Positions 9,236 to 43,942 of a stretch of 43,942 nt of DNA are shown piece by piece. Source of the stretch: an uncultured Ectothiorhodospiraceae bacterium (GTDB taxonomy: Bacteria; Pseudomonadota; Gammaproteobacteria; JAABTG01); the NCBI GenBank assembly GCA_937867305.1, contig CALMKJ010000137.1, positions 1 through 43,942 on the forward strand. The letters are read 5' to 3'. The position numbers were made by a program, and so were the translations under genes. The notes under the pieces were generated by a model. That model was not told the DNA's origin and searched no databases. It saw only the letters and a list, made by a program, of their open reading frames with translations. Position 1 is the stretch's first letter; every line of letters starts with the position of its first letter.

Positions 9236-11584
9236 TCAGCGCGTCAGTTGCCCGAAGAGCGCCGGCAGGCGCTCGGGCAGGCGCTGCACGCGGTCCACGA
9301 CCGCGAAGCGGCCCGCCCCGAAGATCCGCGCCACGTACTCGTCGGCCGCGGGGTCGAGCGTCAGGCAGAAGGTCTGCACCCCGCGGGCGGCGAGCTCCTC
9401 CACCGCCTTGCGGGTGTCCTGGCGCAGGTACTGCGGGTCGCGCACGTCGATGTCGGCCGGCTCACCGTCGGTCACCAGGAGCAGGAGCTTCTTCTGCTGA
9501 CGCTGGCGGCGCAGGAACCCCGCGGCGTGCCGCAGCGCCGCCCCCATCCGGGTCGACAGGCCCCCCTGCATCCCCGCCAGCCGCGCCTTCGCCGCGTCGT
9601 CCCAGGGCTGGTCGAAGTCCTTGAAGCGGTAGTACTGGACGTCGTGGCGCCCGTCCGAGGCGAAGCCGTGCACGGCGAAGGGGTCCCCGATGCCGTGGAT
9701 GGCCCAGGCGAGGAGCGCCGTCGCCTCCCGGGCGAGCTGGAGCACCGACCGGTCGCTGCCCGGAAGGACCTCGCGGGTGGACTCGGAGAGGTCCAGCAGC
9801 AGCAGGACGGCCAGGTCCCGGGTCTTGCGCAGGTAGCGCACGCTCACCCGCGGGTCCGGCGTCTGGCCCAGGCGCAGGGCCACCATCGCCCCCACCGCGG
9901 CGTCGATGTCGATCTCCTCGCCGTCCTCCTGGCGACGCAGGCGCACCAGCCCCTGGGGCTGGAGGGCGTCGATGGTGTGCCGGATCCGGCGCGCGAGCGG
10001 CCCGTATTCCGCCAGGATCGCGTCGATGTCGGCCGCGCGCCCCCGGGGCTGGCGCTTCTCCAGGACGGTCGCCCAGTCCGGGCGGTGCAGCTGCACCTGG
10101 TAGTCCCACTCCGGGTAGGGGTGCGGCTCGCTCACCGGCTCCCGGCCCTCGAGCCGGTTCACGCTGACCCCTGGCGGGTCGCCGTCGCGGAAGAACTCGC
10201 TCGCGAGCGTCCACACCTCCTGGGCATCGTCCCCGGCCAGCTCGCAGTCGACCTCGTTGACCATCTCCATGACGCCGACGGTCCTGCGGGTCTGCCGCTG
10301 GCTCGCCGGGACGTACGCGGCCTCGCGCCAGGCCGCCTCGTCCGCGGCCCAGAGGTAGCGATTGTCGTCCCGGTAGGGCGCCCCGGCGGCCTCCAGGACC
10401 CGCAGCGGGGGGAGCTCACCCTCCGCCGCGACGAGCCCCTCGAGGAGGGCCGCCCCGAGCTCCCGGGACCCGCGCGGGTCCCCGCCCCGCCGCGCGAGCT
10501 CTCCCTGGAAGCGCGCCGCCGCCTCGCGCACCCAGGGGTCCAGGTCCCCCTGCCCCGGGTCCAGCAGCGCCCGGGCGCAGCGCTCGAGCCGGCGCACCAC
10601 CGGGTCGCGCTCCGGCCTGGCCGATTCCACCTGCGCGGCGTGGAACGGCGCCCAGAGCGCCTGCAGCCCCGGGAGCTCGCGGATGGCGAGGGCCTCGACC
10701 CGCGCGTCCTCCACGAGCCCGACGAGCAGCCGGAGCACCGGGTCGAGCTCCCCGGAGCCGAGGGGCTCGCGCGTGTACGCGAGGTGCGCCGCGGCGTGGG
10801 CCGCCGCCGCGCGGTACAGGTCCCGACCGGGGAGCCCCGCGAAGTCGTCCCAGGCGTCCGGGAGGTGGATCACCCCGGCCTCGATGAAGGGCCGTGTCCC
10901 CTCCCGGGTCTCGTGGTCCCCGGAGGTCGGCCGCAGGAAGAAGTCCCGCCCCCAGAGGGCACGCAGGTAGAAGTTGAGCCCGCGCTGGGTGTCCACGAAC
11001 AGCGTCCCGCGCCGCTCCCTCTGCAGGACCGCGCGGCTGTCGGCGGACTCGAGCGCGAAGTAGGCGGCGAGCGCGGGGTAGTCGCGGCCGTGCACCTGCG
11101 CCCCCCAGAGCGCCCAGCGGCGCAGCCCTCCGAGCGTCAACCTCGCGAGGAGCTCGTCCAGACGCGCGAGCATGGGCCGCAGGCCCCGGGGCGCCTTCGC
11201 CGAGAGCTGGTGCACCAGCGCGAGATACCCCCGCAGGAGCTCCGGGTCCCCGAGCCGGCGGGCGGCCGTGGGCAGGCTCGAGAAGAGGAGGCCGACCACC
11301 TCGCCGCTCACCATCGAGGCGAGCTTCATCGCGGCGCCGACGCAGTCCGCAAGGACGTCCTCACCCACCTCCCTGCAGACCGGCGGCATCGCCTGGAGAT
11401 AGGACACCACGAGATCGGTGCCCCGGCCGAGCCGGCGCAGCGCCGTCGCCCCCTCGAGGTAGCCCTGCAGGGCGCGCGGCGACATGCAGCGCGCCGCCTC
11501 CGCGAAGCTCGCCGCCAGCGTGTCCCGCACCGCCGGGTCGGCGCCCTCGAGGAGCTCGCGGTGCCCTTCGAGGCTGACGCTCAT
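9236..11584 (-). CDS. cbbO: CbbO, von Willebrand factor A subunit of RuBisCO activase (782 aa)
   Basis: CbbO works with the AAA+ ring CbbQ to remove inhibitory sugar phosphates from RuBisCO; CbbO is the adaptor that contacts RuBisCO. The C-terminal VWA domain begins near residue 590. A complete MIDAS set is visible: DLSES (D598, S600, S602), a Thr in GGLSTRMG (about 678) and the Asp in VTDGEPAD (about 706). The long N-terminal part (1-590) is mostly helical and has no other recognised domain, as in known CbbO proteins (about 770-800 aa). The start ATG overlaps the cbbQ stop by four bases. It is the last gene of ygfB-pepP-cbbLSQO and converges with fba. Confidence 0.93.
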
Positions 11585-12384
11585 CCGAAGAACGTCGCGA
11601 CCGCCGCCTCCAGGGTCTCGCGCAGGTCCGGGTCGTCGGTGAGGGGGCGCACCAGGGTCATGGAGCAGGCCGCGCGCGCCTCGATGCCCCGGGCGATCAG
11701 GCTCCCCGCGTAGACCAGGAGCCGGGTGGAGACCCCTTCGTCGAGCCCGTGCCCCTTCAGGTTGCGCGCCCGCTGGGCGACCTGCACCAGCTTCTCCGCC
11801 GTCGCGGCGTCCACGCCGCTCTCGTGGGCCACCACCTCCACTTCCACCTCGAGCGGGGGGTAGCCGAAGTCGATGGCCCCGAAGCGCTGCTTGGTCGACT
11901 GCTTCAGGTCCTTCATCAGGCTCTGGTAGCCGGGGTTGTAGGAGATGACGAGCTGGAAGTCGGGGTGCGCGCGCACGAGCTCGCCCTTCTTGTCGAGCGG
12001 GAGCTGGCGCCGGTGGTCGGTGAGCGGGTGGATGACCACCGTGGTGTCCTGGCGGGCCTCGACGACCTCGTCCAGATAGCAGATGGCGCCGATCCGAGCG
12101 GCGGTCGTGAGCGGGCCGTCCTGCCAGCGCGTGCCCGAGACGTCGAGCAGGAACCGCCCCACCAGGTCCGAGGCGGTCATGTCCTCGTTGCAGGCCACGC
12201 TCACCAGCGGCCGGCCGAGCCTCCAGGCCATGTACTCCACGAAGCGCGACTTGCCGGCCCCGGTCGGGCCCTTCAGCATCACCGGCATGCGCGCCCCGTA
12301 GGCCGCCTCGTAGAGGGCGACCTCGTCGGCGACGGGGCGGTAGTAGGGCTCCGCGCCCACCAGGTACGGATCGCGCTCGCTCAC
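11581..12384 (-). CDS. cbbQ: CbbQ, AAA+ (MoxR-type) RuBisCO activase ATPase (267 aa)
   Basis: Hexameric ATPase that remodels RuBisCO together with CbbO. Walker A GPTGAGKS lies at residues 39-46 and Walker B CYLDEV near 105. The MoxR/CbbQ hallmark [16 protein letters not shown] and the sensor-1 region VISYNPGYQ follow. I use the GTG at 12384 because it gives the standard CbbQ N-terminus (SERDPYLVG) and overlaps the cbbS stop in GTGA. An ATG further upstream would only add residues translated out of frame from cbbS. Presence of cbbQ/cbbO behind cbbLS marks this as the non-carboxysomal IAq type. Confidence 0.95.
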
Positions 12385-12746
12385 CGCGGCTCCTGCAGTG
12401 GCGCCCGGAAGACCACCATCGCGGTGCCCTGGGACTGGGCGAAATTGTCGTAGCCCACGAGGCGCACGTGGTGATTCGGGTGCGCCCGATGACAGGCCTC
12501 GGCCTCGGCCAGGATGCGGTCGACGACGGTCTCGCCGAACATCGGCAGCTTCCACATGTACCAGTAGTGATCGAAGGCGTTCTCCGGCTCGGTGTGCTCG
12601 ATGGCCGGGTTCCAGCCCTTCTTCACGATGTACTCCACCTGCTTGCGGATCTGCTCCGGGGTCATCGGCGGCAGGTAGGAGAAGGTCTCGAACTTGCGGC
12701 TCTTCGGGTCGCTCAGGCTCGACTGGTAGTCCTGCATCTCGCTCAT
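12381..12746 (-). CDS. cbbS: RuBisCO small subunit, form IA (121 aa)
   Basis: Small subunit of ribulose-1,5-bisphosphate carboxylase/oxygenase, needed to assemble the L8S8 holoenzyme. The sequence shows the canonical [44 protein letters not shown], and [20 protein letters not shown]. Length and motifs are those of form IA small subunits. It follows cbbL after 74 nt that contain a strong hairpin, and overlaps cbbQ by four bases. Confidence 0.97.
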
Positions 12747-12779
12747 GGTGTCTCGGCCTCCCGGCTCATCCGTCCCGGC

Positions 12780-12821
12780 GGCGCGCCCGGGGGCCCCAAC
12801 GGCCCCGGGCCGCGGCGCGCC
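12780..12821 (-). other. Strong imperfect hairpin in the cbbL-cbbS spacer
   Basis: GGCGCGCC at 12780-12787 pairs with the complementary copy at 12814-12821. A second GC-rich stem (GGGGCC with GGCCCC) lies inside it around an AAC loop, with a bulge of about four bases. The hairpin starts directly at the cbbL stop codon, and no T-run follows on the minus strand. It could act as an mRNA stabiliser for cbbL or a partial attenuator setting the L:S ratio; this role is inference. Confidence 0.55.
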
Positions 12822-14242
12822 TACTTGTGCGCGACGTCGAGCTTGTCGACGGTGTCGAACTCGAACTTGATCTCCTTCCAGGTCTCCATCGCCATCTTCA
12901 GCTCGGGGCTGTGGCGCGCAGCGCCGGCCAGCACCTCCCGGCCCTCCTTCTCGACGGGGCGGCCCTGGTTGCGGGCCTCCACGCAGGCCTCCAGCGCCAC
13001 GCGGTTCGCCGCCGCGCCTGCCGCGTTGCCCCAGGGGTGCCCGAGGGTGCCACCGCCGAACTGCAGCACCGAGTCGTCGCCGAAGATGGAGAGCAGCGCC
13101 GGCATGTGCCAGACGTGGATTCCGCCCGAGGCGACCGCGAACACCCCCGGCATCGACCCCCAGTCCTGGTCGAAGAAGATGCCCCGGCTGCGGTCCTCGG
13201 CGATGTGCTTCTCGCGCAGCAGGTCGATCCAGCCCAGGGTGGAGGCGCGGTCGCCCTCGAGCTTGCCCACCACGGTGCCGGTGTGCAGGTGGTCGCCGCC
13301 CGAGAGGCGCAGGATCTTGGTGAGCACGCGGAAGTGGATGCCGTGGTGCGGGTTGCGGTCGAGCACCGCGTGCATCGCGCGGTGGATGTGCAGCAACACC
13401 CCGTTGTCCCGGCACCAGTTGGCGAGGCCCGTGTTGGCGCAGAACCCGCCGGTGATGAAGTCGTGCATGATGATGGGCGCGCCGAGCTCCTTGGCGTACT
13501 CCGCGCGCTTGTACATCTCCTCGGGCGTCGGGGCGGTGACGTTCAGATAGTGGCCCTTGCGCTCGCCGGTCTCCTCCTCGGCCTTGTCGACGGCGTCCAT
13601 GACGAAATCGAAGCGCTGGCGCCAGCGCATGAAGGGCTGGCTGTTGACGTTCTCGTCGTCCTTGGTGAAGTCGAGCCCCCCGCGCAGGCACTCGTACACC
13701 GCGCGCCCGTAGTTCTTCGCCGAGAGTCCGAGCTTCGGCTTGATGGTGCAGCCGAGCAGCGGGCGGCCGTACTTGTTCAGGATGTCGCGCTCGACCTGGA
13801 TGCCGTGGGGCGGCCCGCCGCAGGTCATCACGTAGGCGATGGGGAAGCGCACGTCCTCCAGGCGCAGGGCGCGCACGGCCTTGAAGCCGAACACGTTGCC
13901 GACGAGCGAGGTGAAGACGTTCACCACCGAGCCTTCCTCGAAGAGGTCGATGGGGTAGGCGACGAAGGCGTAGAAGCAGGTGTCGTCGCCCGGCACGTCC
14001 TCGATGCGGTAGGCGCGGCCCTTGTAGTAGTCGAGGTCGGTCAGCAGGTCGGTCCAGACCGTGGTCCAGGTGCCGGTGGAGGACTCGGCGGCGACCGCGG
14101 CGGCGGCCTCCTCGCGGGGCACGCCCGGCTGGGGCGTGATCTTGAAACAGGCGAGCAGGTCGGTGTCCACCGGCGTGTACTCCGGCATCCAGTACGTCTC
14201 GCGGTATTCCTTCACCCCTGCCTTGTAGGTCTTCACGGCCAT
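12821..14242 (-). CDS. cbbL: RuBisCO large subunit, form IA (473 aa)
   Basis: Catalytic subunit fixing CO2 onto ribulose-1,5-bisphosphate. The active-site segment [17 protein letters not shown] carries the carbamylated Lys and its Asp/Glu neighbours. [11 protein letters not shown] contains the first catalytic Lys, and [11 protein letters not shown] is loop 6. The start [18 protein letters not shown] is the usual form IA N-terminus and the length is normal. Its ATG is only 3 nt beyond the pepP stop. The ribosome site GGGAGG (14256-14251) lies inside the last codons of pepP, so translation of the two genes is likely coupled. No carboxysome shell genes accompany it; cbbQ and cbbO do. Confidence 0.98.
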
Positions 14243-32517: not shown

Positions 32518-33675
32518 ATGACCAGGACCTTCCCGCTGCTGCTCACCCTGCTCGCCGCCCTCGGCACGGCGTCCTGCGACAGCGACCGCTCGCTGAAGCT
32601 GGGCGTCATCGCGGAGCTGACCGGCGACATGCCCGCGGTGGGCGCCTCCTGCCGCAACGCGGCGCAGATGGCGGTGGCGGAGGTCAACGCCGCCGGCGGC
32701 CTGGAGATCGGCGCCGAGCGGGTCAAGCTCAAGCTGGTGGTGGAGGACAACGCCGGCAAGGCCGACCAGTCCGCGGTCGCCGCCCAGAAGCTCATCACCC
32801 AGGACGAGGTGCTCGCGATCGTCGGCCCCAACGCCAGCCGCTACGCCATCCCGGCCGCCGAGGTGGCCGAGAGCGCGGGCACGGTGCTGGTCACCCCCTG
32901 GTCCACCAACCCCAAGACCACGGTGGACGGCGTCACCGGCAAGCCGAAGAAGTACGTGTTCCGCGCCTGCTTCGTCGACCCGTTCCAGGGCGGCGTGCTC
33001 GCCCGCTTCGCCCACGAGAACCTGAAGGCCGCGCGCGCAGCGGTGCTCTACGACGTCGCCTCCGACTACAACAAGGGCATCGCCGAGGTCTTCCGGGAGA
33101 GCTTCGAGCGCCTCGGGGGCAAGGTGGTGGCGTTCGAGACCTACACCACGGGCGACAAGGACTTCTCCGCGCAGCTCACCAAGATCAAGGACGCGAAGCC
33201 CCAGGTCGTCTTCCTCCCGAACTACTACAGCGAGGTCCCGCTGCAGGTGCAGCAGGCCAAGCGCCTCGGGATCGACGTGCCCTTCATCGGCAGCGACTCC
33301 TGGGGCAGTGACGAGCTGCTGAAGCTCGGTGGCGCGGACATGAACGGCTACTTCTTCAGCACGCACTACTCGGCGGACAACGCCGCGCCGGCGGCCAAGA
33401 AGTTCCTGCAGGACTACGAGGCGACCTACGGCGCCAAGCCGGACGACGTGGCCGCGCTCACCTACGACGCCTTCGGCCTGCTGTTCGGTGCGATCCGCAC
33501 CGCGGGCAAGGCCGACCGCGAGGCGGTGCGCGCCGCGCTCTCCACGCTGGCGGAGTACCGCGGCGTCACCGGCGACCTGCAGTTCCGCGCCGACTCGCGC
33601 GACCCCGTGAAGAGCGCCGTCATCCTGCAGATCCGGGAGGGCCGCTTCCACTACTTCACGAACGCGAGCCCGTGA
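32518..33675 (+). CDS. livK: Branched-chain amino acid/amide-type ABC transporter substrate-binding protein (385 aa)
   Basis: Periplasmic type-I binding protein of the LivJ/LivK family. The N-terminus is a lipoprotein-like signal (LLTLLAALGTASC, Cys about 19). The mature part starts SLKLGVIAELTGDMPAVG, followed by NAAQMAVAEVNAAGG, AIVGPNASRYAIPAAEVAES, VTPWSTNP and DYNKGIAEVF, and ends with LTYDAFGLLFGAI, all characteristic. It heads livK-H-M-G-F. Substrate cannot be read from sequence; members transport branched-chain or other amino acids, amides or urea. Confidence 0.92.
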   Translation: MTRTFPLLLTLLAALGTASCDSDRSLKLGVIAELTGDMPAVGASCRNAAQMAVAEVNAAGGLEIGAERVKLKLVVEDNAGKADQSAVAAQKLITQDEVLAIVGPNASRYAIPAAEVAESAGTVLVTPWSTNPKTTVDGVTGKPKKYVFRACFVDPFQGGVLARFAHENLKAARAAVLYDVASDYNKGIAEVFRESFERLGGKVVAFETYTTGDKDFSAQLTKIKDAKPQVVFLPNYYSEVPLQVQQAKRLGIDVPFIGSDSWGSDELLKLGGADMNGYFFSTHYSADNAAPAAKKFLQDYEATYGAKPDDVAALTYDAFGLLFGAIRTAGKADREAVRAALSTLAEYRGVTGDLQFRADSRDPVKSAVILQIREGRFHYFTNASP

Positions 33676-33683
33676 TCGGGCGC

Positions 33684-33731
33684 GGGACTGGGACCGGGTC
33701 CGGGATCGAGATCGGGATCGAGGTCGGGAAG
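33684..33731. repeat. Hexanucleotide array ending in the livH ribosome site
   Basis: Eight contiguous hexamers of the form GGGATC (GGGACT, GGGACC, GGGTCC, GGGATC, GAGATC, GGGATC, GAGGTC, GGGAAG) run from 33684 to 33731. They lie between the livK stop and the livH GTG. The last unit, GGGAAG, is the apparent Shine-Dalgarno sequence five bases before the GTG at 33737. Confidence 0.85.
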
Positions 33732-33736
33732 CGGCC

Positions 33737-34624
33737 GTGAGCGAGGCCCTCGTCTACTGGCTGCAGCAGGTCCTGAACGCCCTGCAGCTGGGCAGCATCT
33801 ACGCCCTGATCGCGCTCGGCTACACCCTGGTCTACGGGATCCTCACCATGATCAACTTCGCCCACGGCGACGTGTTCATGGTGGGGGCCTTCTTCTGTTT
33901 CCTGTCCGCGGTGTACCTGGGGCTGCCCTTCGTCCCGACGCTCCTGCTCACCATCCTCGGCACCGCGCTCCTCGGGGTGCTGATCGAGCGCCTCGCCTAC
34001 AAGCCCCTGCGCCACGCCCCGCGCGTCTCCGCGGTCATCACCGCGCTCGGGGTCGGGCTGTTCCTGGAGAACTTCACGCTGGCGCTCGCGCCCTACCCTA
34101 AGAACGTGCCCGCGCTCCTGGACAACGTGACCTGGGACCTGGGGGGCGTTTCGCTCTCCTCGCTGCAGGTCATCATCATCTTCCTCTCCCTCGGGCTGAT
34201 GCTGGTCCTCGACCACGTGGTGCACCGCACCCCGGTGGGCATGGCGATGCGCGCGATCTCCTGGGACCGGACCTTCGTCCCGCTGATGGGCGTCCCGGTC
34301 AACACGATCATCTCCGTCACCTTCGCCATCGGGGCCGGGCTCGCGGGCGCGGCGGGCACCATGTACGCCCTCGCCTACCCGGTGATCGACCCGTACATGG
34401 GGATCATGGTGGGCTGGAAGGCGTTCATCTCCGCGGTGGTCGGCGGCATCGGCAACATCCGGGGGGCGATGATCGGCGCCTTCCTGCTGGGCGGGGTGGA
34501 GATCATGGTCACCGCCTTCTTCCCGTCCACCTACCGTGACTTCGTCGCGTTCACGCTCCTGCTGCTCCTGATCCTCGTGCGCCCGTACGGGATCCTCGGC
34601 CAGCCGCGCACCCAGAAGGTATGA
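33737..34624 (+). CDS. livH: Branched-chain amino acid-type ABC permease LivH (295 aa)
   Basis: Inner-membrane permease with about eight hydrophobic segments. The family segments LNALQLGSIYALIALGYTLVYGILTMINFAHG (start) and VGGIGNIRGAMIGAFLLGGVEI (C-terminal part) are clear. GTG start follows the hexamer-derived ribosome site. The stop overlaps the livM ATG (ATGA). Confidence 0.94.
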   Translation: MSEALVYWLQQVLNALQLGSIYALIALGYTLVYGILTMINFAHGDVFMVGAFFCFLSAVYLGLPFVPTLLLTILGTALLGVLIERLAYKPLRHAPRVSAVITALGVGLFLENFTLALAPYPKNVPALLDNVTWDLGGVSLSSLQVIIIFLSLGLMLVLDHVVHRTPVGMAMRAISWDRTFVPLMGVPVNTIISVTFAIGAGLAGAAGTMYALAYPVIDPYMGIMVGWKAFISAVVGGIGNIRGAMIGAFLLGGVEIMVTAFFPSTYRDFVAFTLLLLLILVRPYGILGQPRTQKV

Positions 34625-35727
34625 GCCGCCCGCTGCGCCGCCGCTGGGACTGGCTGCTCGAGCAGCGCTGGCTGCTGCCCGGGCTGCTCGTCGCCGGGCT
34701 CGCGCTCTCCTTCGCCATCCCCGAGTACGGACTGCTGAACAGGTACGTCCAGATGGTCCTGATGTACGTGGGGATCAACATCATCCTCGCCGTCAGCCTG
34801 AACCTGGTGAACGGCTTCATGGGCGAGTTCTCCCTCGCCCACGCCGGGTTCATGGCGGTGGGGGCGTACACCGCGGCGCTCCTCACCATGAGGGTGCTGC
34901 CGGTCGCGGAGTTTCCCGCGCTCTTCCCGGTGGCGGTGCTGGCCGGCGGGCTCGCCGCCGCGCTGCTCGGGCTCGTGGTGGCCGTGCCCTCGTTCAAGGT
35001 GCGGGGCGACTACCTCGCGATCATCACGCTCGCCTTCCTGATGATCGTGAAGTCGGTCATCGAGAACATCGACGCCGTGGGCGGGCCGCGCGGGATCCCC
35101 GGCATCGGCAAGCTGACCACCCTGCCCTGGGTGTTCTTCTGGGCCGTCGCCGTCGTGTGGCTCGTGCGCAATTTCGTCTATTCGCGCTACGGGCGCGGCG
35201 TGCTCGCGGTGCGCGAGGACGAGATCGCGAGCGAGTTGATGAGCGTGCACACCCGCCGGGTGAAGTTCCTCGCCTTCACCCTGTCCTCGTTCGGCGCCGG
35301 CGTGGCGGGCGCGCTCTTCGCGCACCTGCTGCAGTTCATCAGCCCGCGCGTGTTCGACGTGATCAAGACCACCGACATCCTGATCATGGTGTACCTCGGG
35401 GGCATCGCCTCCATCGGCGGGTCGATCCTGGGGGCGACGCTCTACACCGTGCTGCTGGAGATCCTGCGCCCGTCCACGGTGGCCGCCCTGCTCTCCTGGC
35501 TGCCGGCGGTGGTCTTCGACCCGCTGAACGAGCACTTCATCCGCCACCTCGGCGTGTGGCGCATGGTCATCATGCCGCTCGCCCTGGTGCTGGTGATGCT
35601 CTACTGGCCGCGCGGGATCATGGGGCTGCGCGAGTACCGCGGATTCATCCCCCGCCTCGACCGCGAGGCCCACCGCCGCGGCGACCCCCAGGGAGGCCGC
35701 CGCGATGGCGCTGCTCACCGCGACTGA
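34621..35727 (+). CDS. livM: Branched-chain amino acid-type ABC permease LivM (368 aa)
   Basis: Second permease of the transporter. Typical segments are LNLVNGFMGEFSLAHAGFMAVGAYTAALL, RGDYLAIITLAFLMIVKSV, GRGVLAVREDEIASELM and YLGGIASIGGSILGATLYTVL; about nine membrane helices. The C-terminus is a short basic/Gly-rich tail which overlaps the start of livG by 23 bases, implying coupled translation. Confidence 0.94.
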   Translation: MSRPLRRRWDWLLEQRWLLPGLLVAGLALSFAIPEYGLLNRYVQMVLMYVGINIILAVSLNLVNGFMGEFSLAHAGFMAVGAYTAALLTMRVLPVAEFPALFPVAVLAGGLAAALLGLVVAVPSFKVRGDYLAIITLAFLMIVKSVIENIDAVGGPRGIPGIGKLTTLPWVFFWAVAVVWLVRNFVYSRYGRGVLAVREDEIASELMSVHTRRVKFLAFTLSSFGAGVAGALFAHLLQFISPRVFDVIKTTDILIMVYLGGIASIGGSILGATLYTVLLEILRPSTVAALLSWLPAVVFDPLNEHFIRHLGVWRMVIMPLALVLVMLYWPRGIMGLREYRGFIPRLDREAHRRGDPQGGRRDGAAHRD

Positions 35728-36475
35728 CGTGCGGCACTATTTCGGCGGGCTGTGCGCGCTCGCCGGCTTCAACCTCGCGCTCGAGGAGGGCGAGCTGATG
35801 GGGCTCATCGGCCCCAACGGCGCGGGCAAGACGACGGTCTTCAACCTGATCACGGGGGTGTACCGGGCGAGCTCGGGCAGCATCCGCTTCAAGGACACGG
35901 AGCTCGTGGGCAAGACTCCGCACCAGATCACGGCCCTGCGCATCGGGCGCACGTTCCAGAACATCCGCCTGTTCCGCGACCTCTCGGTCCTCGACAACGT
36001 GCGCATCGCGCACTACGCCCGGGCGCGTTACACGCCCATCGAGGCGCTGCTGCACCTGGGGCGCTACCGGGGCGAGGAGCGCCGCATCGTCGACGATTCC
36101 CGCCGCCTGCTCTCGATCTTCAAGCTCGAGCGCCTCGCCGGCGAGACCGCGAAGAACCTGCCCTACGGCATGCAGCGCCGGCTCGAGATCGCGCGCGCGC
36201 TCGCCATCGGCCCGGAGCTGCTCCTGCTCGACGAGCCGGCGGCCGGCATGAACCCGAACGAGATCGACCAGCTGATGGACTTCATCCAGTGGATACGGCG
36301 CGAGTTCCGGCTGACCATCCTGCTGATCGAGCACCAGATGAAGCTGGTGATGGGGATCTGCGAGCGCATCCAGGTCCTCGACTTCGGCGAGACCCTCATC
36401 GAGGGACCGCCGGAGGCGATCCGCAGCGACCCGCGCGTGCTCGAGGCCTATCTCGGCGAGGCCCCGGTCGCGTGA
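35705..36475 (+). CDS. livG: Branched-chain amino acid-type ABC ATPase LivG (256 aa)
   Basis: ATP-binding subunit. Walker A GPNGAGKTT lies at about residues 37-45. The Liv-specific FQNIRLFRDLSVLDNV, the variant signature LPYGMQRRLEIARAL (normal for LivG), Walker B LLLDEPAAGMN and the H-loop LLIEHQMKLVM follow. The end EAIRSDPRVLEAYLGE is typical. It overlaps livM (23 bp) and livF (4 bp, GTGA). Confidence 0.95.
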   Translation: MALLTATDVRHYFGGLCALAGFNLALEEGELMGLIGPNGAGKTTVFNLITGVYRASSGSIRFKDTELVGKTPHQITALRIGRTFQNIRLFRDLSVLDNVRIAHYARARYTPIEALLHLGRYRGEERRIVDDSRRLLSIFKLERLAGETAKNLPYGMQRRLEIARALAIGPELLLLDEPAAGMNPNEIDQLMDFIQWIRREFRLTILLIEHQMKLVMGICERIQVLDFGETLIEGPPEAIRSDPRVLEAYLGEAPVA

Positions 36476-37230
36476 GCGCCCCCCTCGCACCGGCCGCTGA
36501 GGCCCGGCTCGCACCGGCCGCTGAGGCACAGCTCGAGGTCCGCGACCTCACCCTGAGCTACGACGGCATCCGCGCGCTCCACGGCGTGTCCTTCACGGTG
36601 GGGGCGGGCGAGATCGTCACCCTGGTCGGCGCGAACGGGGCCGGCAAGACCTCGGTGCTCCGGGCGATCTCGGGCCTGGCGCCCTTCGGGGGGAGCATCC
36701 GCTTCGAGGGCCAGGACCTCCGGCGCGTCCCGGCCCACCGCATCGTCGGGCTCGGCATCGCCCACGTCCCCGAGGGGCGCGGGGTCTTCGGCAACCTCAC
36801 GGTGCATGAGAACCTGCGCCTCGCCACCTGGCAGCGGCGCGACCGGGCCGGCATCGAGGCCGACCTGGAGCGGGTCCTCGGGACCTTCCCGCGCCTGCGC
36901 GAGCGGCTGCGCCAGCCGGCGGGCACCCTCTCGGGCGGGGAGCAGCAGATGCTGGCGGTGGGGCGGGCGCTGATGAGCCGGGCGCGCCTGCTGCTCCTCG
37001 ACGAGCCGTCCATGGGGCTCTCGCCGCGGCTGGTGCAGGAGATCTTCCGGGTGATCGAGGAGATCAATCGCAGCGGTGTCACCGTGCTCCTGGTGGAGCA
37101 GAATGCCAACATGGCCCTGCACGTCGCCTCCCGCGCCTACGTCCTCGAGACGGGCGCCGTCACCCTCTCCGGGACCGGACCCGAGCTCCGGGGCGACCCC
37201 CGGGTGAGGGAGGCGTACCTCGGTGCCTGA
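36472..37230 (+). CDS. livF: Branched-chain amino acid-type ABC ATPase LivF (252 aa)
   Basis: Second ATPase subunit. Walker A GANGAGKTS, the LivF-typical HVPEGRGVFGNLTVHENL, signature LSGGEQQMLAVGRAL, Walker B LLLDEPSMGLSP and LLVEQNANMAL are present. The C-terminal REAYLGA is standard. The first about 18 residues are an unusual extension made of two copies of an eight-residue block (LAPAAEAR, LAPAAEAQ) inserted between the GTG start and the normal LEVRDLTLSYDG. An internal start just before LEVRDL is not available as ATG, GTG or TTG, so the extension is probably translated. Confidence 0.94.
   Translation: MSAPLAPAAEARLAPAAEAQLEVRDLTLSYDGIRALHGVSFTVGAGEIVTLVGANGAGKTSVLRAISGLAPFGGSIRFEGQDLRRVPAHRIVGLGIAHVPEGRGVFGNLTVHENLRLATWQRRDRAGIEADLERVLGTFPRLRERLRQPAGTLSGGEQQMLAVGRALMSRARLLLLDEPSMGLSPRLVQEIFRVIEEINRSGVTVLLVEQNANMALHVASRAYVLETGAVTLSGTGPELRGDPRVREAYLGA
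36484..36531 (+). repeat. 24-bp in-frame tandem duplication at the livF N-terminus
   Basis: A 24-bp unit beginning CTCGCACCGGCCGCTGAGGC is present twice (36484-36507 and 36508-36531), differing at two bases near the 3' end. It encodes LAPAAEAR and LAPAAEAQ right after the start codon. It looks like a recent duplication. Confidence 0.85.
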
Positions 37231-37242
37231 GGCCCACCGCCC

Positions 37243-39252
37243 GTGACGGACCCCGCGCTCGTCCTCGCCCTCGGGGCGGTCGTCGTCGCGCTGGCCGCGA
37301 GCTCGCTCGCGGTCTCGACCTGCGCCTGGGCGGAACGGGTCGGGCGCCTGTACTTCCTGCTTCTCGGCCTCACCGGCGTGCTCGCGGTCGCCGCCGGAAT
37401 GGGCGCCCTCACGGGCGGGGGCACGGTGGCCACCGCCCAGTTGCCCCTCGGCCTGCCCTGGCTGCCCTGGCGCGTGCGTCTCGACGCCCTGTCCGGCTTC
37501 TTCCTGGTCCTGATCGGGATCGTCACCGTCGCGGTCGCGCTCTTCGGCCCCGGCTACGTGCGGGAGTTCTCCCGCAGCCGCGACCCCCTGTGGCTGCTCG
37601 GCGGGCTCACCGGGCTCTTCCTCACCGGCATGCTGCTGGTGGTGCTCGCCGACGACGCCTTCCTGTTCATGGTGGCGTGGGAGCTGATGTCGGTCAGCTC
37701 CTACTTCCTCGTGGTGTTCCAGCACGAGCACGCGGCCAACCGCCGGGCCGCGTTCCTCTACCTGCTCATGGCCCACGTGGGCGGTCTCAGCATCCTGCTC
37801 GGCTACGGCGTGCTGGCCGCCTTCGGGCACGGCTTCACCTTCGAGGCGATGCGCGCCGGGGAGCTGCAGCCGGTGTGGTCCAGCGTGGCCTTCGGGCTCG
37901 CCTTCCTCGGCTTCGGGACCAAGGCCGGGCTCGTGCCGCTGCACGCCTGGCTGCCCGAGGCGCACCCGGCCGCCCCGTCCCACGTCTCCGCGCTCATGTC
38001 CGGGGTGATGCTGAAGGTCGCCGTGTACGGCTTCATCCGCTTCACCTTCGACCTCCTCGGCGACGCGCGGCTCGGCTGGGGGGTCACGGTGCTCCTGGTG
38101 GGCAGCGTCTCCGCGCTGATGGGGGTGCTCTACGCCCTGATGCAGCACGACCTGAAGCGGCTACTCGCCTACCACTCGGTCGAGAACGTCGGGATCATCT
38201 TCATCGGCCTCGGCCTGTCGCTCGTCTTCCTCTCCGCGGGGCTGACCGTCGCGGGGGTCGTCGCGCTCATCGCGGCGCTCTACCACACCCTGAACCACGC
38301 CCTCTTCAAGAGCCTGCTCTTCTTCGGCGCGGGCGCGGTGCTGCACGCGACCCACGAGCGCGACATCGACCGCATGGGCGGGCTGCTGCGCCGGATGCCC
38401 TGGACGGGGCTGTTCTTCCTGGTGGGCTGCATCAGCATCTCCGCCCTGCCGCCCTTCAACGGCTTCGTCTCCGAGTGGCTCACCTTCCAGGCGGCGCTGC
38501 AGGCCTGGAGCCTGAAGAGCGGCGTGCTGCGCAGCCTGCTCCCCATCACCGCCGCCATGCTCGCGGTGACCGGGGCGCTCGCCGCCGCCTGCTTCGTCAA
38601 GGTCTACGGGGTCGCCTTCCTCGGCCAGGCCCGCTCCCGGCACGTGCGCCGGGCCCGCGAGGTGAGCCTCGGCATGCGCGCCGGCCAGGCGCTGCTCGCC
38701 GCACTCTGCCTGCTCCTGGGGGTGCTGCCCACCACGGTGGTGGGCCTGCTGAACCCGGTCTCCCAGCTGCTCCTCGGCCAGGGCCTCGACCCGGTCACCA
38801 CCGAGAGCTGGCTGTGGCTCACCCCGGTGCCGGCCGAGGGGGCGAGCTACGGCGCCCCGCTGGTGCTGCTCTCCCTCGCCGTGCTCTGGTGGGGCGGGCG
38901 CTGGCTCCTCGCCCGCGGGCCGCGCGCCGCGGTGCGCCGCTGCGACGCCTGGGACTGCGGCTTCTCGCCCCCGAACGCCCGCATGCAGTACACCGCCACC
39001 TCCTTCGCCCAGCCCATCCGCCGGGTGTTCGGCCCGCTGTTCCGGATCGACGAGCGGGTCGAGACCGAGGGCGGGCGCCAGCGCCACTTCCTGCACGTGG
39101 AAGACCGGGCCTGGGATCTCCTCTACGCGCCGGTGGCGCGCCTCGTGGAGCGCTCGGCGAGCCGCGTGGTGCGCCTGCAGACGGGGCAGGTGCGCACCTA
39201 CCTGGCGTGGTCGCTCGCAACCCTCCTGGTGCTGCTGTGGATCATCTCCTGA
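37243..39252 (+). CDS. hyfB: Hydrogenase-4 subunit B-like antiporter subunit HyfB (669 aa)
   Basis: Large membrane protein homologous to NuoL/NuoM-type and Mrp-type antiporter subunits; in hydrogenase-4 and related complexes it is a proton-pumping unit. About 14-16 membrane helices are visible. The conserved Glu of helix 5 lies in FMVAWELMSVSSYFLV, and the charged helix 7-8 region is GTKAGLVPLHAWLPEAHPAAPSHVS with GVMLKVAVYG; further Lys/His occur in YHTLNHALFKSLLFFGAG. The C-terminal RRCDAWDCGFSPPNARMQYTATSFAQPIRRVF is diagnostic of HyfB-type subunits rather than NuoL. It starts with GTG, 12 nt after livF, suggesting one transcription unit with the liv genes. Confidence 0.92.
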   Translation: MTDPALVLALGAVVVALAASSLAVSTCAWAERVGRLYFLLLGLTGVLAVAAGMGALTGGGTVATAQLPLGLPWLPWRVRLDALSGFFLVLIGIVTVAVALFGPGYVREFSRSRDPLWLLGGLTGLFLTGMLLVVLADDAFLFMVAWELMSVSSYFLVVFQHEHAANRRAAFLYLLMAHVGGLSILLGYGVLAAFGHGFTFEAMRAGELQPVWSSVAFGLAFLGFGTKAGLVPLHAWLPEAHPAAPSHVSALMSGVMLKVAVYGFIRFTFDLLGDARLGWGVTVLLVGSVSALMGVLYALMQHDLKRLLAYHSVENVGIIFIGLGLSLVFLSAGLTVAGVVALIAALYHTLNHALFKSLLFFGAGAVLHATHERDIDRMGGLLRRMPWTGLFFLVGCISISALPPFNGFVSEWLTFQAALQAWSLKSGVLRSLLPITAAMLAVTGALAAACFVKVYGVAFLGQARSRHVRRAREVSLGMRAGQALLAALCLLLGVLPTTVVGLLNPVSQLLLGQGLDPVTTESWLWLTPVPAEGASYGAPLVLLSLAVLWWGGRWLLARGPRAAVRRCDAWDCGFSPPNARMQYTATSFAQPIRRVFGPLFRIDERVETEGGRQRHFLHVEDRAWDLLYAPVARLVERSASRVVRLQTGQVRTYLAWSLATLLVLLWIIS

Positions 39253-40202
39253 GCGTCTGGGCCTGGTCGCTCGCGGTGCTGCAGGCGCTCCTGGTGCTCG
39301 CGGCGGCCCCGCTCCTCGTCGGCTGGGTGCGGCGGGTGAAGGCGCGCCTGCAGAACCGCAAGGGTCCCCCGCTGACGCAGCCCTACCGGGAGCTCGCGAA
39401 GCTGCTCACGAAGGAGGCCCTGGTCGCCCACACGGCCTCGCCGGTGTTCCGGGCCGCGCCCTACATCGTGTTCGGGGCGACCTGGATCGCCACCGCCACG
39501 CTGCCCTCGCTCGCCACCGGCCTGCCGAGCGCGGCGGTCGCCGACGTGGTGGTGCTGGCCGGCTTCCTCGCCCTGGCGCGGTTCTTCCTGGCGCTCGCGG
39601 GGCTCGACGTGGGCACCGCGTTCGGCGGCATGGGCTCCTCGCGGGAGATGATGATCTCGGCGCTCGCCGAGCCCGCCATGCTGACCGCCGTCTTCACCAT
39701 CACCATGACGGCGCACACCACCAACCTCTCGGGGGTCATGGAGCAGCTGCTCGGCGCCCCGCTCGCCCTGCGGCCCTCGATCCTCTTCGCCCTCGGGGCG
39801 CTCGCCCTGGTGGCCATCGCGGAGACCGGCCGGATCCCCATCGACAACCCCGCGACCCACCTCGAGCTCACGATGATCCACGAGGCGATGATCCTCGAGT
39901 ACAGCGGGCGCCACCTGGCGCTGATGGAGTGGGCCGCGCAGCTGAAGCTCCTGCTCTACGGCACCCTGATCGCAAACGTCTTCTTCCCCTGGGGCGTCGC
40001 CACCGTGCTGAAACCGTCCGCGCTCGCCTTCGCGGCGCTGGCCCTTGCCGGCAAGCTCGCCGTCCTCGGGGTCCTGCTCGCCCTCGCCGAGACCACGCTC
40101 GCCAAGATGCGGCTCTTCCGCGCCCCGCTGTTCCTGAACCTCGCCTTCCTGCTGGCCCTGCTCGGGATGTTCAGCCACGTGATCCTCGAGGTGGGGGCGT
40201 AG
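39237..40202 (+). CDS. hyfC: Hydrogenase-4 subunit C-like/NuoH-type membrane anchor HyfC (321 aa)
   Basis: Homologue of the NuoH subunit, which joins the hydrophilic arm to the membrane arm and forms part of the quinone site in complex I. Typical blocks are RLQNRKGPPLTQPYRELAKLL, AETGRIPIDNPATHLELTMIHEAMILEYSG (the strongly conserved loop with Glu/Asp residues) and KMRLFRAPLFLNLAFLLALLGMF; eight helices. The most likely start is the GTG at 39237 overlapping hyfB by 16 bases, giving a length close to E. coli HyfC (322 aa). No clear ribosome site is visible, so translational coupling is assumed. Confidence 0.88.
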   Translation: MDHLLSVWAWSLAVLQALLVLAAAPLLVGWVRRVKARLQNRKGPPLTQPYRELAKLLTKEALVAHTASPVFRAAPYIVFGATWIATATLPSLATGLPSAAVADVVVLAGFLALARFFLALAGLDVGTAFGGMGSSREMMISALAEPAMLTAVFTITMTAHTTNLSGVMEQLLGAPLALRPSILFALGALALVAIAETGRIPIDNPATHLELTMIHEAMILEYSGRHLALMEWAAQLKLLLYGTLIANVFFPWGVATVLKPSALAFAALALAGKLAVLGVLLALAETTLAKMRLFRAPLFLNLAFLLALLGMFSHVILEVGA

Positions 40203-40205
40203 CAC

Positions 40206-40883
40206 GTGACCCATCTCACCCTCCTCGACCAGGCGGTCTTCGTCCTCGCGGCGGTGGTGCTCTTCACCTGCTTCGCGCTCCTCACCCAGGCCCGGCTGGT
40301 CGCCACCCTGCGCACCTTCGCCTGGCAGGGCGGGCTGGTGGCTGCGGTGACCGCGCTGATGGCCGCCGCGCACCGCGAGCCGCACCTCTACGTCACGGCC
40401 GCGCTCACCCTCGTCCTGAAGGCGGGCGTGATCCCCTGGATGCTGCACCGCTGGGTGCGGCGCCTCGGCCTCGACCGGCACGTGGAGAGCCTGGCCTCCC
40501 CCCCGGCGGTCACGCTCGCCGGCGTCGGCCTGGTGATCTTCTGCTACTGGGTCGTGCTGCCCATCGAGCGCATGGAGTTGACGGCCACCCGCAACGTCAT
40601 CGCGGTGAGCCTGGCGGTGGTGGTGCTCGGCCTGCTGATGATGGTGACCCGGCGCCAGGCGGTGAGCCAGGTGGTGGGCTTCATGGCGATGGAGAACGGC
40701 CTCTTCCTCGCCGCCGTGACCGCCACCAGCGGCATGCCCCTGGTGGTGGAGCTCGGCGTCGCCTTCGACATCCTGGTGGCCGCGGTGCTCTTCGGCGTGT
40801 TCTTCCTGCAGATCCGCGACGCCATCGACTCGCTCGACGTGGACCGGCTGAACCGGCTGGCCGAAGGCATGGAGCAGGAATGA
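40206..40883 (+). CDS. hyfE: Hydrogenase-4 subunit E-like/NuoK-type protein HyfE (225 aa)
   Basis: Six to seven membrane helices; the C-terminal half contains the NuoK-like segment VVGFMAMENGLFLAAVTATSGMPLVVELGVAFDILVAAVLFGVF with the conserved membrane Glu residues (MEN and VEL). Length is that of HyfE (about 216-225 aa), i.e. longer than NuoK. GTG start three bases after hyfC. The stop overlaps hyfF (ATGA). No hyfD is present between C and E. Confidence 0.9.
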   Translation: MTHLTLLDQAVFVLAAVVLFTCFALLTQARLVATLRTFAWQGGLVAAVTALMAAAHREPHLYVTAALTLVLKAGVIPWMLHRWVRRLGLDRHVESLASPPAVTLAGVGLVIFCYWVVLPIERMELTATRNVIAVSLAVVVLGLLMMVTRRQAVSQVVGFMAMENGLFLAAVTATSGMPLVVELGVAFDILVAAVLFGVFFLQIRDAIDSLDVDRLNRLAEGMEQE

Positions 40884-42352
40884 ACGCCCTGCTCGTGGCG
40901 GTGTTCACGCCGGCCGTCGGCCTGCTCCTCCTGGGGCTCGTGCCCGGCCTCACCCTCGCGGGCTGGCTGAACGTGGGGCTGTCCTCGCTGAGCCTCGCCG
41001 GGGCCGTCACCCTCGCCTGGCAGGTGCTCGCGGACGGGCCCCTCAACGCCAACGGCTTCCACGTGGACGCCTTCAACGTCTACCTGGTGGCGCTCACGGC
41101 CTTCGTCGGCTTCACGACGAGCGTCTTCTCGCGCCCCTACATGCGCCACGTCTGCGACTCCCGCCACCTGCCCCGCCGGCACATGCGTCTCTACCACGCC
41201 ATGTTCCAGGGCTTCATGTTCACCATGATGCTGGCGCTCACCACCGACAACCTGGGGATCCTCTGGGTCTCGGTGGAGGGGGCCACCCTCGCGACGGTGC
41301 TGCTGGTCTCGCTGTACCGCACCCCCGAGGCGGTGGAGGCGGCATGGAAGTACTTCATCCTCTGCGGCGTCGGCCTCGCCCAGGCCCTGTTCGGCACCAT
41401 CCTCGTGTACTTCGCCGCCCAGCTCGCGCTCACCGACCCCACCCGCGGCCTGAGCTGGACCGTGCTCTACGCGATCTCCGACAAGCTCGACCCGACGGTG
41501 ATGAGCATCGCCTTCGTGTTCCTGCTGGTGGGCTACGGCACGAAGGTGGGCCTGGTCCCGCTGCACAGCTGGCTGCCGGACGCCCACTCGGAGGGCCCGA
41601 CACCCATGTCGGCGGTGCTCTCCGGGCTCCTCCTCAACGTGGCCCTGTACGCCCTCGTCCGCCTGAAGATGCTGACCGACGGCGCCCTCCTCGGGACCGC
41701 CGCGCCCCACACCGCGGGGCACCTGCTGATGGCCTTCGGGCTCGTCTCGTTCCTCGTGGCCGGGCTCTTCCTGCACCGCCAGCGCGACGTGAAGCGCATG
41801 TTCAGCTACTCGTCCATCGAGCACATGGGGCTGATGACCTTCGCCTTCGGCATCGGCGGACCGCTCGCGACCTTCGGCGCGTTGCTGCACATGCTGGTGC
41901 ACTCCCTCACCAAGTCGGCGATCTTCGTCACCGTGGGCCACGCCGCGCACATCGCCGGGACCCAGACCATCGACCACATCCGGGGGCTCATCCGCACCCA
42001 GCCCGCGGTCGGCTGGGGCCTCACCGTGGGCGTGCTCGCCATCGCGGGGTTCCCGCCCTTCGGGGTGTTCACGAGCGAGTTCCTGCTGCTCACCGCGACC
42101 ATGGAGAGCTGGCCCTGGCTCACCGTGACGCTGCTCGCCGGCCTCGTCATCGCCTTCGCCGGTCTGTTCCGGCACCTGCACCCCATGGTCTTCGGGGTCG
42201 CGCCCGAGGGGCAGCAGCCGGTGCCCGCGAACATGGCCCCGGTGACCGTGCATTTGCTCCTGGTGCTCTGGCTCGGACTCGCGATCCCGGGCTTCCTGGC
42301 GGGCTGGCTCGACCAGGCGACGCACCTCATCACCGGCAGCGGGCTCCTGTGA
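40880..42352 (+). CDS. hyfF: Hydrogenase-4 subunit F-like antiporter subunit HyfF (490 aa)
   Basis: Second antiporter-like subunit (NuoN/NuoM relative). Helix-5 Glu lies in LWVSVEGATLATVLL. The helix 7-8 region is GYGTKVGLVPLHSWLPDAHSEGPTPMSAVLSG, where the usual second Lys is Asn in LLLNVALYAL, as in HyfF/HycC-type subunits. LVHSLTKSAIFVTVGHAA follows, and the late segment GFPPFGVFTSEFLLLTA is typical. About 13-14 helices. Together with HyfB it gives this complex two putative proton channels. ATG overlaps hyfE; its own stop overlaps the HyfG GTG. Confidence 0.92.
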   Translation: MNALLVAVFTPAVGLLLLGLVPGLTLAGWLNVGLSSLSLAGAVTLAWQVLADGPLNANGFHVDAFNVYLVALTAFVGFTTSVFSRPYMRHVCDSRHLPRRHMRLYHAMFQGFMFTMMLALTTDNLGILWVSVEGATLATVLLVSLYRTPEAVEAAWKYFILCGVGLAQALFGTILVYFAAQLALTDPTRGLSWTVLYAISDKLDPTVMSIAFVFLLVGYGTKVGLVPLHSWLPDAHSEGPTPMSAVLSGLLLNVALYALVRLKMLTDGALLGTAAPHTAGHLLMAFGLVSFLVAGLFLHRQRDVKRMFSYSSIEHMGLMTFAFGIGGPLATFGALLHMLVHSLTKSAIFVTVGHAAHIAGTQTIDHIRGLIRTQPAVGWGLTVGVLAIAGFPPFGVFTSEFLLLTATMESWPWLTVTLLAGLVIAFAGLFRHLHPMVFGVAPEGQQPVPANMAPVTVHLLLVLWLGLAIPGFLAGWLDQATHLITGSGLL

Positions 42353-43942
42353 GCGAGGGCACTTCCACCGCCGCCCCCCTCGGCGCACCCACCGGCGCCC
42401 CTCTCGGCGCACCCGCCGCTGACCGGCGCCTGGCGTGGGTCGAGGAGTACGCGGCGCGACTGCGCGAGGAGCTGGTGGGGGTCCGGCGGCGCTCGACGAG
42501 CGTGCTCGCCCCCGCCCAGGTCCTCGCGGTCGACCCGGAGGACTGGGCACGGGCGGGGGCCGTCGCGGCGGCCTTCGGCTGCCGGTGGGCCGCCCTCTGG
42601 GCCGACCCCCGGGAGGACACGCTGCTCGTGCGCAGCGTCCTCGAGAAGGGCGGCGGCCACCTGGTGCTCGAGACCGGCGTGCCGCTCGCCAGCCCCCGCC
42701 TGGCCTCCCTCGCCGGGCAATTCCCGGCCGCGGACCGCCCCGAGCGCCACGCCCACGACCTGCTCGGACTCGAGCTCCTGGACCACCCCCAGCCCCAGCG
42801 CTGGACGCGCCACCAGGCCTGGCCCGAGACCCGATTCCCCTTGCGCCCCGACGACTTCCCCCCGAGCGGGGAGCCCCCTGGAGCCACGCCCCCCGACCCC
42901 GACTACCCCTTCGCGCGAGTCGAGGGCAGCGGGGTCTACGAGATCCCCGTGGGGCCGGTGCACGCCGGCATCATCGAGCCCGGGCACTTCCGCTTCCACG
43001 CGGTGGGCGAAGAGGTCCTGCGGCTCGAGGAGCGCCTCGGCTACGTCCACAAGGGCGTCGAGAAGGCGGCGGTCGGCCGCAATGCCGAGGGACTCGCCCG
43101 GCTCGCCGGCCGGGTCTCCGGGGACTCCACCGTCGCCCACACCTGGGCGGCCTGCCAGGCCCTCGAGCGGGCGGTGGGCTGCGTGGTCCCGCCCCGGGCG
43201 CTGCACCTGCGCGCGATCCTCGCCGAGCGCGAGCGCATCGCGAACCACCTCGGGGACATCGGCGCCATCTGCAACGACGTCGCCTTCACCTTCGCGCTCG
43301 CCCAGCTCGGGCGCCTGCGCGAGCTCTGGCAGCGGCGCAGCCAGCAGTGCTTCGGCCACCGCCTGCTGATGGACGTGGTCGTCCCCGGGGGCGTGCGGGG
43401 AGACATCGGGATCGGCGGCATCGGGAACCTGCGGGCCGACCACCGGAGCCTGCGCCAGGAGGTCGAGGTCCTCTTCGACCTGCTGGAGGACAACCCCTCC
43501 CTCATGGACCGCCTGGTGACCACCGGACGGCTCGCCCCGCAGACCGCGGGCCTCATGGGCGCGTTGGGCTACGTGGGCCGGGGCTCGGGTCAGGCCTTCG
43601 ACGCGCGCCGGGACAGCCCCTACCCGCCCTACGACGGGCTCGAGGTCCCCGTGCCGGTCTTCGCCGAGGGCGACGTGGCGGCGCGGGTGCGGGTGCGCAT
43701 GGAAGAGGTCCGGATCTCCCTCGACCTGATGGACCAGCTCCTGGAGACCCTGCCGGCAGGCGCGACCCGGGCCCCCTGGCCAGCCGCCGGGGACGGTGAA
43801 GGGGGCAGAGGCGGTGAAGCGGGCAGAGGCGGCGACGGGGGCGGGGAAGGCCTCGGCGTCGTCGAGGGCTGGCGCGGCGAAGTGCTCACCTACGTGCGCC
43901 TCGACGGGGCGGGGCGGGTCGCCCGCTTCTTCCCGCGCGACC
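42349..43942 (+). CDS. hyfG: HyfG/HycE-like fused NuoC-NuoD large subunit, 3' truncated by window edge, lacking N-terminal NiFe cysteines
   Basis: The first 531 codons are visible and the frame stays open to the window end. After a repeat-derived extension (residues 1-24), residues about 28-175 match the 30-kDa NuoC-type domain. From about residue 190 the 49-kDa domain begins (YEIPVGPVHAGIIEPGHFRF, LEERLGYVHKGVEK). Where [NiFe] hydrogenases have RxCGxC, this protein reads RVSGDSTVAHTWAAC: Ser257, Gly258, Asp259, Ser260, so both N-terminal Ni-Fe ligands are missing. The C-terminal ligand pair lies beyond the window. A Gly/Glu-rich insertion occurs at codons about 482-505. GTG start overlaps hyfF (GTGA). 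It should be a complex-I-like coupling subunit, not a hydrogenase. Confidence 0.9.
   Translation, partial: MSEGTSTAAPLGAPTGAPLGAPAADRRLAWVEEYAARLREELVGVRRRSTSVLAPAQVLAVDPEDWARAGAVAAAFGCRWAALWADPREDTLLVRSVLEKGGGHLVLETGVPLASPRLASLAGQFPAADRPERHAHDLLGLELLDHPQPQRWTRHQAWPETRFPLRPDDFPPSGEPPGATPPDPDYPFARVEGSGVYEIPVGPVHAGIIEPGHFRFHAVGEEVLRLEERLGYVHKGVEKAAVGRNAEGLARLAGRVSGDSTVAHTWAACQALERAVGCVVPPRALHLRAILAERERIANHLGDIGAICNDVAFTFALAQLGRLRELWQRRSQQCFGHRLLMDVVVPGGVRGDIGIGGIGNLRADHRSLRQEVEVLFDLLEDNPSLMDRLVTTGRLAPQTAGLMGALGYVGRGSGQAFDARRDSPYPPYDGLEVPVPVFAEGDVAARVRVRMEEVRISLDLMDQLLETLPAGATRAPWPAAGDGEGGRGGEAGRGGDGGGEGLGVVEGWRGEVLTYVRLDGAGRVARFFPRD
42373..42420 (+). repeat. 24-bp in-frame tandem duplication at the hyfG N-terminus
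   Basis: Two 24-bp units (42373-42396 and 42397-42420) share the core CTCGGCGCACCC and differ at about five positions. They encode APLGAPTG and APLGAPAA directly behind the start codon, before the NuoC-like domain. Confidence 0.8.
43795..43855 (+). repeat. 18-bp coding repeat in the HyfG 49-kDa domain
   Basis: GGTGAAGGGGGCAGAGGC (43795-43812) is followed by a copy with one substitution (43813-43830) and a degenerate third. It encodes a Gly/Glu/Arg-rich loop (GEGGRG, GEAGRG, GDGGGEG) that separates LETLPAGATRAPW from VVEGWRGEVLTYVRL, two stretches that normally lie closer together in the family. Confidence 0.8.

Follow-up and report, generated by a model that had tools for sequence, protein, structure and literature searches.

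What does a membrane complex built like hydrogenase 4 do once its large subunit has lost the nickel ligands? The question is raised by five genes, hyfB, hyfC, hyfE, hyfF and hyfG, which the open reading frame list places in tandem, head to tail, at positions 37243-43942 of the forward strand in a contig from an uncultured Ectothiorhodospiraceae bacterium (CALMKJ010000137.1). The whole contig, 43942 bases long, is the window of this analysis, and the host assembly (G000) comprises 2.8 Mb in 222 contigs. Judged by its defining features, the complex is almost certainly an energy-converting hydrogenase-related (Ehr) complex, EhrABCDLS; it is not a hydrogenase. The explanation that we consider best overall, at a probability of roughly 0.6, is that Ehr would couple ion movement to redox transfer between a soluble carrier of low potential and a quinone-like substrate. 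The operon adds a member to an already described family, and the type of complex is not new. Because the contig (C137) stops inside hyfG, with 531 of about 544 codons in the window, reading rightward past 43942 is impossible; the full-length operon was read from a sister genome of the same genus (G001, locus L033), whose proteins share 87-99% identity with those of the window.

The large subunit carries the decisive evidence. In HyfG, numbered from its GTG start, the motif reads R255-V-S257-G-D-S260-T-V-A-H, and the first-pass annotation had placed Ser257-Gly-Asp-Ser260 in the CxxC position at exactly these codons. The C-terminal motif lies past the end of the window; there the sister and the relatives have SYSG and E. 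coli HycE and HyfG have CYSC, and the sister protein ends at residue 544 (...NIVPDFPVCNKSVNGSYSGQDL) with no extension beyond. In the alignment, the nickel ligands C, C, C and C of E. coli HycE thus correspond to S, S, S and G in the sister HyfG; with SGDS at one end and SYSG at the other, all four ligands are gone, including the C-terminal pair that the earlier reading had proposed to look for to the right of the window. The cysteine of FPVCNKS near the C-terminus was considered as a leftover ligand and rejected, as the HycE alignment puts the ligands at S and G of SYSG. Among about 85 homologues, nearly all have S-G-D-S/T at the N-terminal site, the second ligand position being S or T in most; a few rows deviate at single positions, and no complete row of the alignment has regained a CxxC pair. 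Conserved serine or threonine occupies three of the four ligand positions. Since the replacements are conserved among relatives, they argue for a rebuilt site rather than for decay. The ratios of non-synonymous to synonymous substitution rates (dN/dS) between window and sister (0.07-0.18 for the membrane subunits, 0.37 for HyfG) indicate purifying selection on each gene. A sequencing error at 43117-43128, which had been named as a way in which cysteines might be hidden, is ruled out by the similar motif in the sister and in the about 85 homologues. A second NiFe large subunit downstream was also sought: there is none in the sister operon, where hyfI is followed by unrelated genes for an MFS transporter and a DUF6384 protein.

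The distribution of maturation genes agrees with this. HypD is needed for assembly of the NiFe cofactor. We sampled 249 Pseudomonadota genomes evenly and called Ehr at more than 490 bits, or from a clear fragment (one case); hits of 307-337 bits were counted as group 4a hydrogenases, and in the tree the three that were fetched grouped with HycE and HyfG. Ehr was present in 44 of the 249 genomes, and 24 of these 44 carriers, G011 included, lack HypD; a relative from the same class (G044) has Ehr and no HypD. Both nickel-binding CxxC pairs that mark group 4 NiFe hydrogenases are thus missing, and the dependence on Hyp maturation that also marks them is absent in 24/44 carriers, though the window genome itself has HypD. 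Its presence, on contig C25, means that the host may carry a separate, true hydrogenase. A working hydrogenase in the window, its ligands hidden by error or functionally replaced by serines, could appeal to the host HypD and to the conserved serine or threonine at three of the four positions, but the repetition of the motif in about 85 sequences and the lack of HypD in over half of the sampled carriers essentially refute it. The claim of the first-pass annotation that H2 chemistry is very unlikely therefore holds, as does its warning that the labels "hydrogenase 4" and "formate hydrogenlyase" would mislead. Ehr genes are common yet carry these names, so that H2 metabolism is ascribed to organisms that possibly have none.

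Which family this is can be read from the gene set, the relatives and the tree. HyfB and HyfF score above cut-off with the NCBIfam models of hydrogenase 4 subunit B and subunit F, respectively (852 bits for a cut-off of 667, and 715 for 543), HyfE scores 83 bits, below the cut-off, with the hydrogenase 4 membrane subunit model, and HyfG joins a NuoC-type domain (residues about 103-169) to a NuoD-type domain. The membrane arm and fusion subunit described earlier were thus found at their coordinates with matching domains. The sister operon is complete as hyfB-C-E-F-G-I and has no hyfA, hyfD or hyfH; five Ehr subunits are seen in the window and the small subunit in the sister. We scanned one genome per species for relatives and obtained at least 80 named loci. 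Among the matches listed, the six-gene set is constant wherever the locus is long enough, and HyfA, HyfD and HyfH were not recognised; the absence of hyfD reported for the window is thus usual for the family. The ligand replacements occur, among the same matches, in Pseudomonadota, Nitrospirota, Thermodesulfobacteriota and Myxococcota, with carriers in purple sulfur bacteria, methanotrophs, Thiobacillus, Burkholderiales, Azospirillum, Rhizobium, Zetaproteobacteria, Nitrospirota and deltaproteobacterial lineages. In the maximum-likelihood tree, which the first-pass annotation had proposed as a check, the ligand-less large subunits form one clade (support 99/94) beside the group 4a hydrogenases, separate from both NuoD and MbhL, with MbhL the only representative of groups 4b-4h. 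Published Ehr sequences were left out of this tree, and the assignment to Ehr therefore rests on the defining features. The tree neighbour of the Ehr clade is a second ligand-less family of two loci (L039, L040), both in genome G044, with RVSGVGS and RLSGSSA motifs, genes arranged as C-E-F-G-I-B and a ferredoxin-like stretch rich in cysteines that precedes the small subunit; the same genome additionally holds an ordinary Ehr (L037).

The original descriptions of Ehr are said to be those of Coppi and of Marreiros and co-workers. Ehr complexes that lack the NiFe ligands, with function given as unknown, have been described in Nitrospira (PMC10284858, PMC12342949) and Margulisbacteria (PMC6349859); EhrA, EhrC, EhrL and EhrS have been reported from Geobacter (PMC7894505), and Ehr also from mycobacteria (PMC6728331). 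These papers report no measured activity for an Ehr of this type. The mention in the first-pass annotation of cysteine-less Hyf-like clusters in other chemolithoautotrophs, without established function, matches these reports, and its impression of an unnamed kind of complex has to be corrected. The six subunit kinds (HyfB, C, E, F, G and I-like) are alike in the known complexes (Geobacter sulfurreducens GSU0739-45, Nitrospira and the mycobacterial Rv0081-Rv0087 region), which lack the NiFe ligands, HyfA and HyfH just as the window's type does; we found no feature that distinguishes the copy in the window from them, its upstream gene being a branched-chain-amino-acid-type (LIV) transporter. Hydrogenase 4 and formate hydrogenlyase (E. 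coli Hyf and Hyc, group 4a) have a homologous membrane arm and a CD-type large subunit, whereas in Ehr all four nickel ligands are replaced, HyfA, D and H are missing, no C-terminal extension follows the motif and maturation genes are dispensable. Respiratory complex I (NuoB, CD, H, K, L, M) shares with Ehr the fold, the pump residues and the NuoB-like cluster, but Ehr occupies a separate tree branch and lacks the NADH module, NuoI and the quinone-site tyrosine motif; indeed, the sister locus has no NADH module beside the operon and the alignment shows no such motif. Complex I genes of the host itself include NuoD on contigs C15 and C83, the C15 copy within a second, divergent complex I operon (C15:1-8000, L006; NuoA, B, D, F, G, H, I, J). 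MBS and Mbh of Pyrococcus belong to the same superfamily of ion-pumping oxidoreductases, with weak sequence similarity to Ehr.

What such a complex might do is suggested by the residues that it has kept. Aligned with E. coli HyfB, NuoL, NuoM and homologues, HyfB conserves the pump residues E147, K227, K258, K305, K356 and E411; HyfC conserves E141, D199, E206 and E217, HyfE E163 and E182, and HyfF E132, K221, K304, K344 and E399. The charged residues of EhrA, EhrB and EhrD, earlier described as intact in HyfB, HyfC and HyfF, are conserved at 0.9 or above, mostly at 1.0. In EhrS (HyfI), the four [4Fe-4S] cysteines are kept in 77-78 of 78 homologues, giving one predicted cluster site. The AlphaFold model of the large subunit matches HycE best (7z0s_E, TM score 0.83) and also complex I CD subunits. 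Taken together, these features make it quite probable that Ehr is an ion-coupled redox enzyme. The four membrane subunits would move ions, with the large and small subunits attached; a soluble low-potential carrier would dock at the EhrS cluster and a small molecule would bind in the cavity that held the ancestral NiFe centre, the likeliest candidates being ferredoxin for the carrier and a quinone for the small molecule. Electron transfer between carrier and small molecule would be linked to ion movement in the manner of complex I and Mbh. Ferredoxin and quinone as the actual redox couple is a more tentative proposal, to which we give somewhat less than an even chance. In an autotroph, Ehr could run backwards, with an ion gradient yielding low-potential reductant; such reverse electron flow is possible, and we found no direct evidence for it.

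Several observations weigh against the proposed oxidoreductase. No recurring redox partner gene was recognised beside the operon among gene clusters of at least three loci in the matches listed. The complex I quinone-tyrosine motif (YTDRIEY / YVDRLNY) is replaced by LAGRVSGDS in Ehr, so quinone binding would differ from that in complex I. AlphaFold confidence is low at residues 164-226, the N-terminal part of the site. Finally, EhrS of the window genome falls in an assembly gap: a search for hyfI on the other contigs yielded nothing but NuoB of complex I, on C15.

Two alternatives keep a redox role for Ehr and change its substrate. In archaeal MBS, the small-subunit cluster is the catalytic centre. 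By analogy, Ehr might be a polysulfide or other small-molecule reductase in which that cluster became the terminal catalytic centre after NiFe loss; the general situation is as in MBS, with ligands lost and the cluster retained, and 6u8y_L is among the structure-sequence matches. However, the large subunit scores 89 bits with 6u8y, far under the 222 bits with HycE, and many carriers, such as Methylobacter, Azospirillum and Rhizobium, are not known sulfur organisms, and we regard this as unlikely. Slightly less likely still is a simplified formate respiration chain without H2, in which Ehr would be linked to a formate dehydrogenase. This has been put forward for Margulisbacteria and Saganbacteria (PMC6349859), and Ehr subunits increase in formate-grown Geobacter sulfurreducens (PMC7894505), but no formate dehydrogenase was recognised among recurring neighbours at the at least 80 loci or directly downstream in the sister, in a search limited to neighbourhoods.

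A further alternative comes from the genes around the operon, which in some lineages point to carbon fixation. Much as the CO2-hydrating NDH-1 serves cyanobacteria, the Ehr pump might serve carbon fixation by concentrating bicarbonate or controlling pH, in partnership with a SulP anion transporter and, in certain species, a carbonic anhydrase. A SulP gene adjoins hyfB in at least 17 loci, at least 15 times upstream on the same strand, of about 56 loci among the matches listed with enough upstream sequence to show such a gene; these loci span several orders of Gammaproteobacteria (methanotrophs) and Betaproteobacteria, plus Muproteobacteria. Between SulP and hyfB, two of the loci have a gamma-carbonic-anhydrase-like hexapeptide protein (L106:2827-3384, L126:2745-3302) that scores below curated cut-offs. 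In Acidithiobacillus caldus, a beta-carbonic anhydrase gene neighbours one hyf cluster and carbon fixation genes neighbour another (PMC3826726), and in A. ferrooxidans the hyf locus tags (ANFP_19460-19510) adjoin that of cbbM (ANFP_19520; PMC8759370). RuBisCO of form I or II occurs in 27/44 carriers and 40/205 non-carriers (odds ratio 6.6, Fisher p about 1e-7) and, outside one autotrophic family, in 13/27 and 18/183 (odds ratio 8.5, p about 7e-6), both figures being uncorrected for kinship. The first-pass annotation had proposed to compare occurrence with autotrophy genes, and its view of the host as an autotroph is made likely by the RuBisCO large subunit in the window. However, SulP and carbonic anhydrase are both missing from the surroundings of most Ehr loci, the general sulfate permease model is the one that the SulP proteins match, their scores being far under the BicA cut-off, window and sister carry the LIV transporter instead, and, because 17/44 carriers have no RuBisCO, Ehr is not specific to Calvin-cycle autotrophs. 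A motif search found no beta-carbonic anhydrase near the at least 80 loci listed, and a literature search for a SulP-Ehr link yielded just the A. caldus paper, which ties hyf to beta-carbonic anhydrase and not to SulP. We consider this inorganic-carbon role improbable, if a little less so than the other two. Its narrower form, in which Ehr in SulP-linked lineages and acidithiobacilli would be a redox-powered inorganic-carbon or pH machine built on a former hydrogenase, a bacterial counterpart of cyanobacterial NDH-1, is about as doubtful as the MBS-like reductase. Nevertheless, SulP, the carbonic-anhydrase-like protein and RuBisCO near Ehr offer a testable lead in culturable Thiobacillus, methanotrophs and Azospirillum. 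A gamma-carbonic-anhydrase-like protein also lies near Ehr at L112:13472-14029.

Table 1. Features of the ehr locus and its surroundings in the window.
Feature	Position	Strand	Description	Basis
ehrA / hyfB	37243..39252	+	NuoL/M-like antiporter subunit, 669 aa	NCBIfam hydrogenase 4 subunit B
ehrB / hyfC	39249..40205	+	NuoH-like membrane subunit, about 317 aa	Pfam NADHdh, 133 bits
ehrC / hyfE	40206..40883	+	HyfE-like membrane subunit, NuoK-like C-terminus, 225 aa	
ehrD / hyfF	40883..42352	+	NuoM/N-like antiporter subunit, 489 aa	NCBIfam hydrogenase 4 subunit F
ehrL / hyfG	42349..43942	+	NuoC-NuoD fusion large subunit, GTG start	Pfam Complex1_30kDa + Complex1_49kDa
Ser257-Gly-Asp-Ser260	43117..43128	+	Replaces N-terminal Ni-ligand CxxC	Translation; alignment with HycE RVCGIC and about 85 homologues
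LIV ABC transporter genes	32518..37230	+	Branched-chain-amino-acid-type transporter	Named from translations
RuBisCO large subunit	12824..14242	-	Context, not part of the complex	Pfam RuBisCO_large, 469 bits

The last LIV gene stops 12 bp upstream of hyfB, with identical spacing in the sister genome, and co-transcription with ehr is possible. Other Ehr loci do not share the LIV cluster (none in five or more relatives), which rules it out as a conserved partner; the transporter is therefore probably no functional part of Ehr. RuBisCO lies about 23 kb from hyfB in the window, and in the sister it shares one contig with Ehr at about 30 kb. The RuBisCO large subunit of the window is adjoined by genes for a CbbQ-type ATPase and a VWA protein, CbbO-like by position (9236-14242, minus strand).

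Among the other relatives, one Ehr operon (L138, genome G214) is kept in a genome of 0.9 Mb, rated 100% complete, with no HypD or RuBisCO hits. A protein combining a helix-turn-helix and a PTS EIIA domain is encoded near Ehr in Geothermobacter and Nitrospirota (L076:3044-3784; also L094 and L117), and methanotroph loci (L066, L067, L078, L079, L083) have a two-component sensor and a sigma-54 regulator near Ehr.

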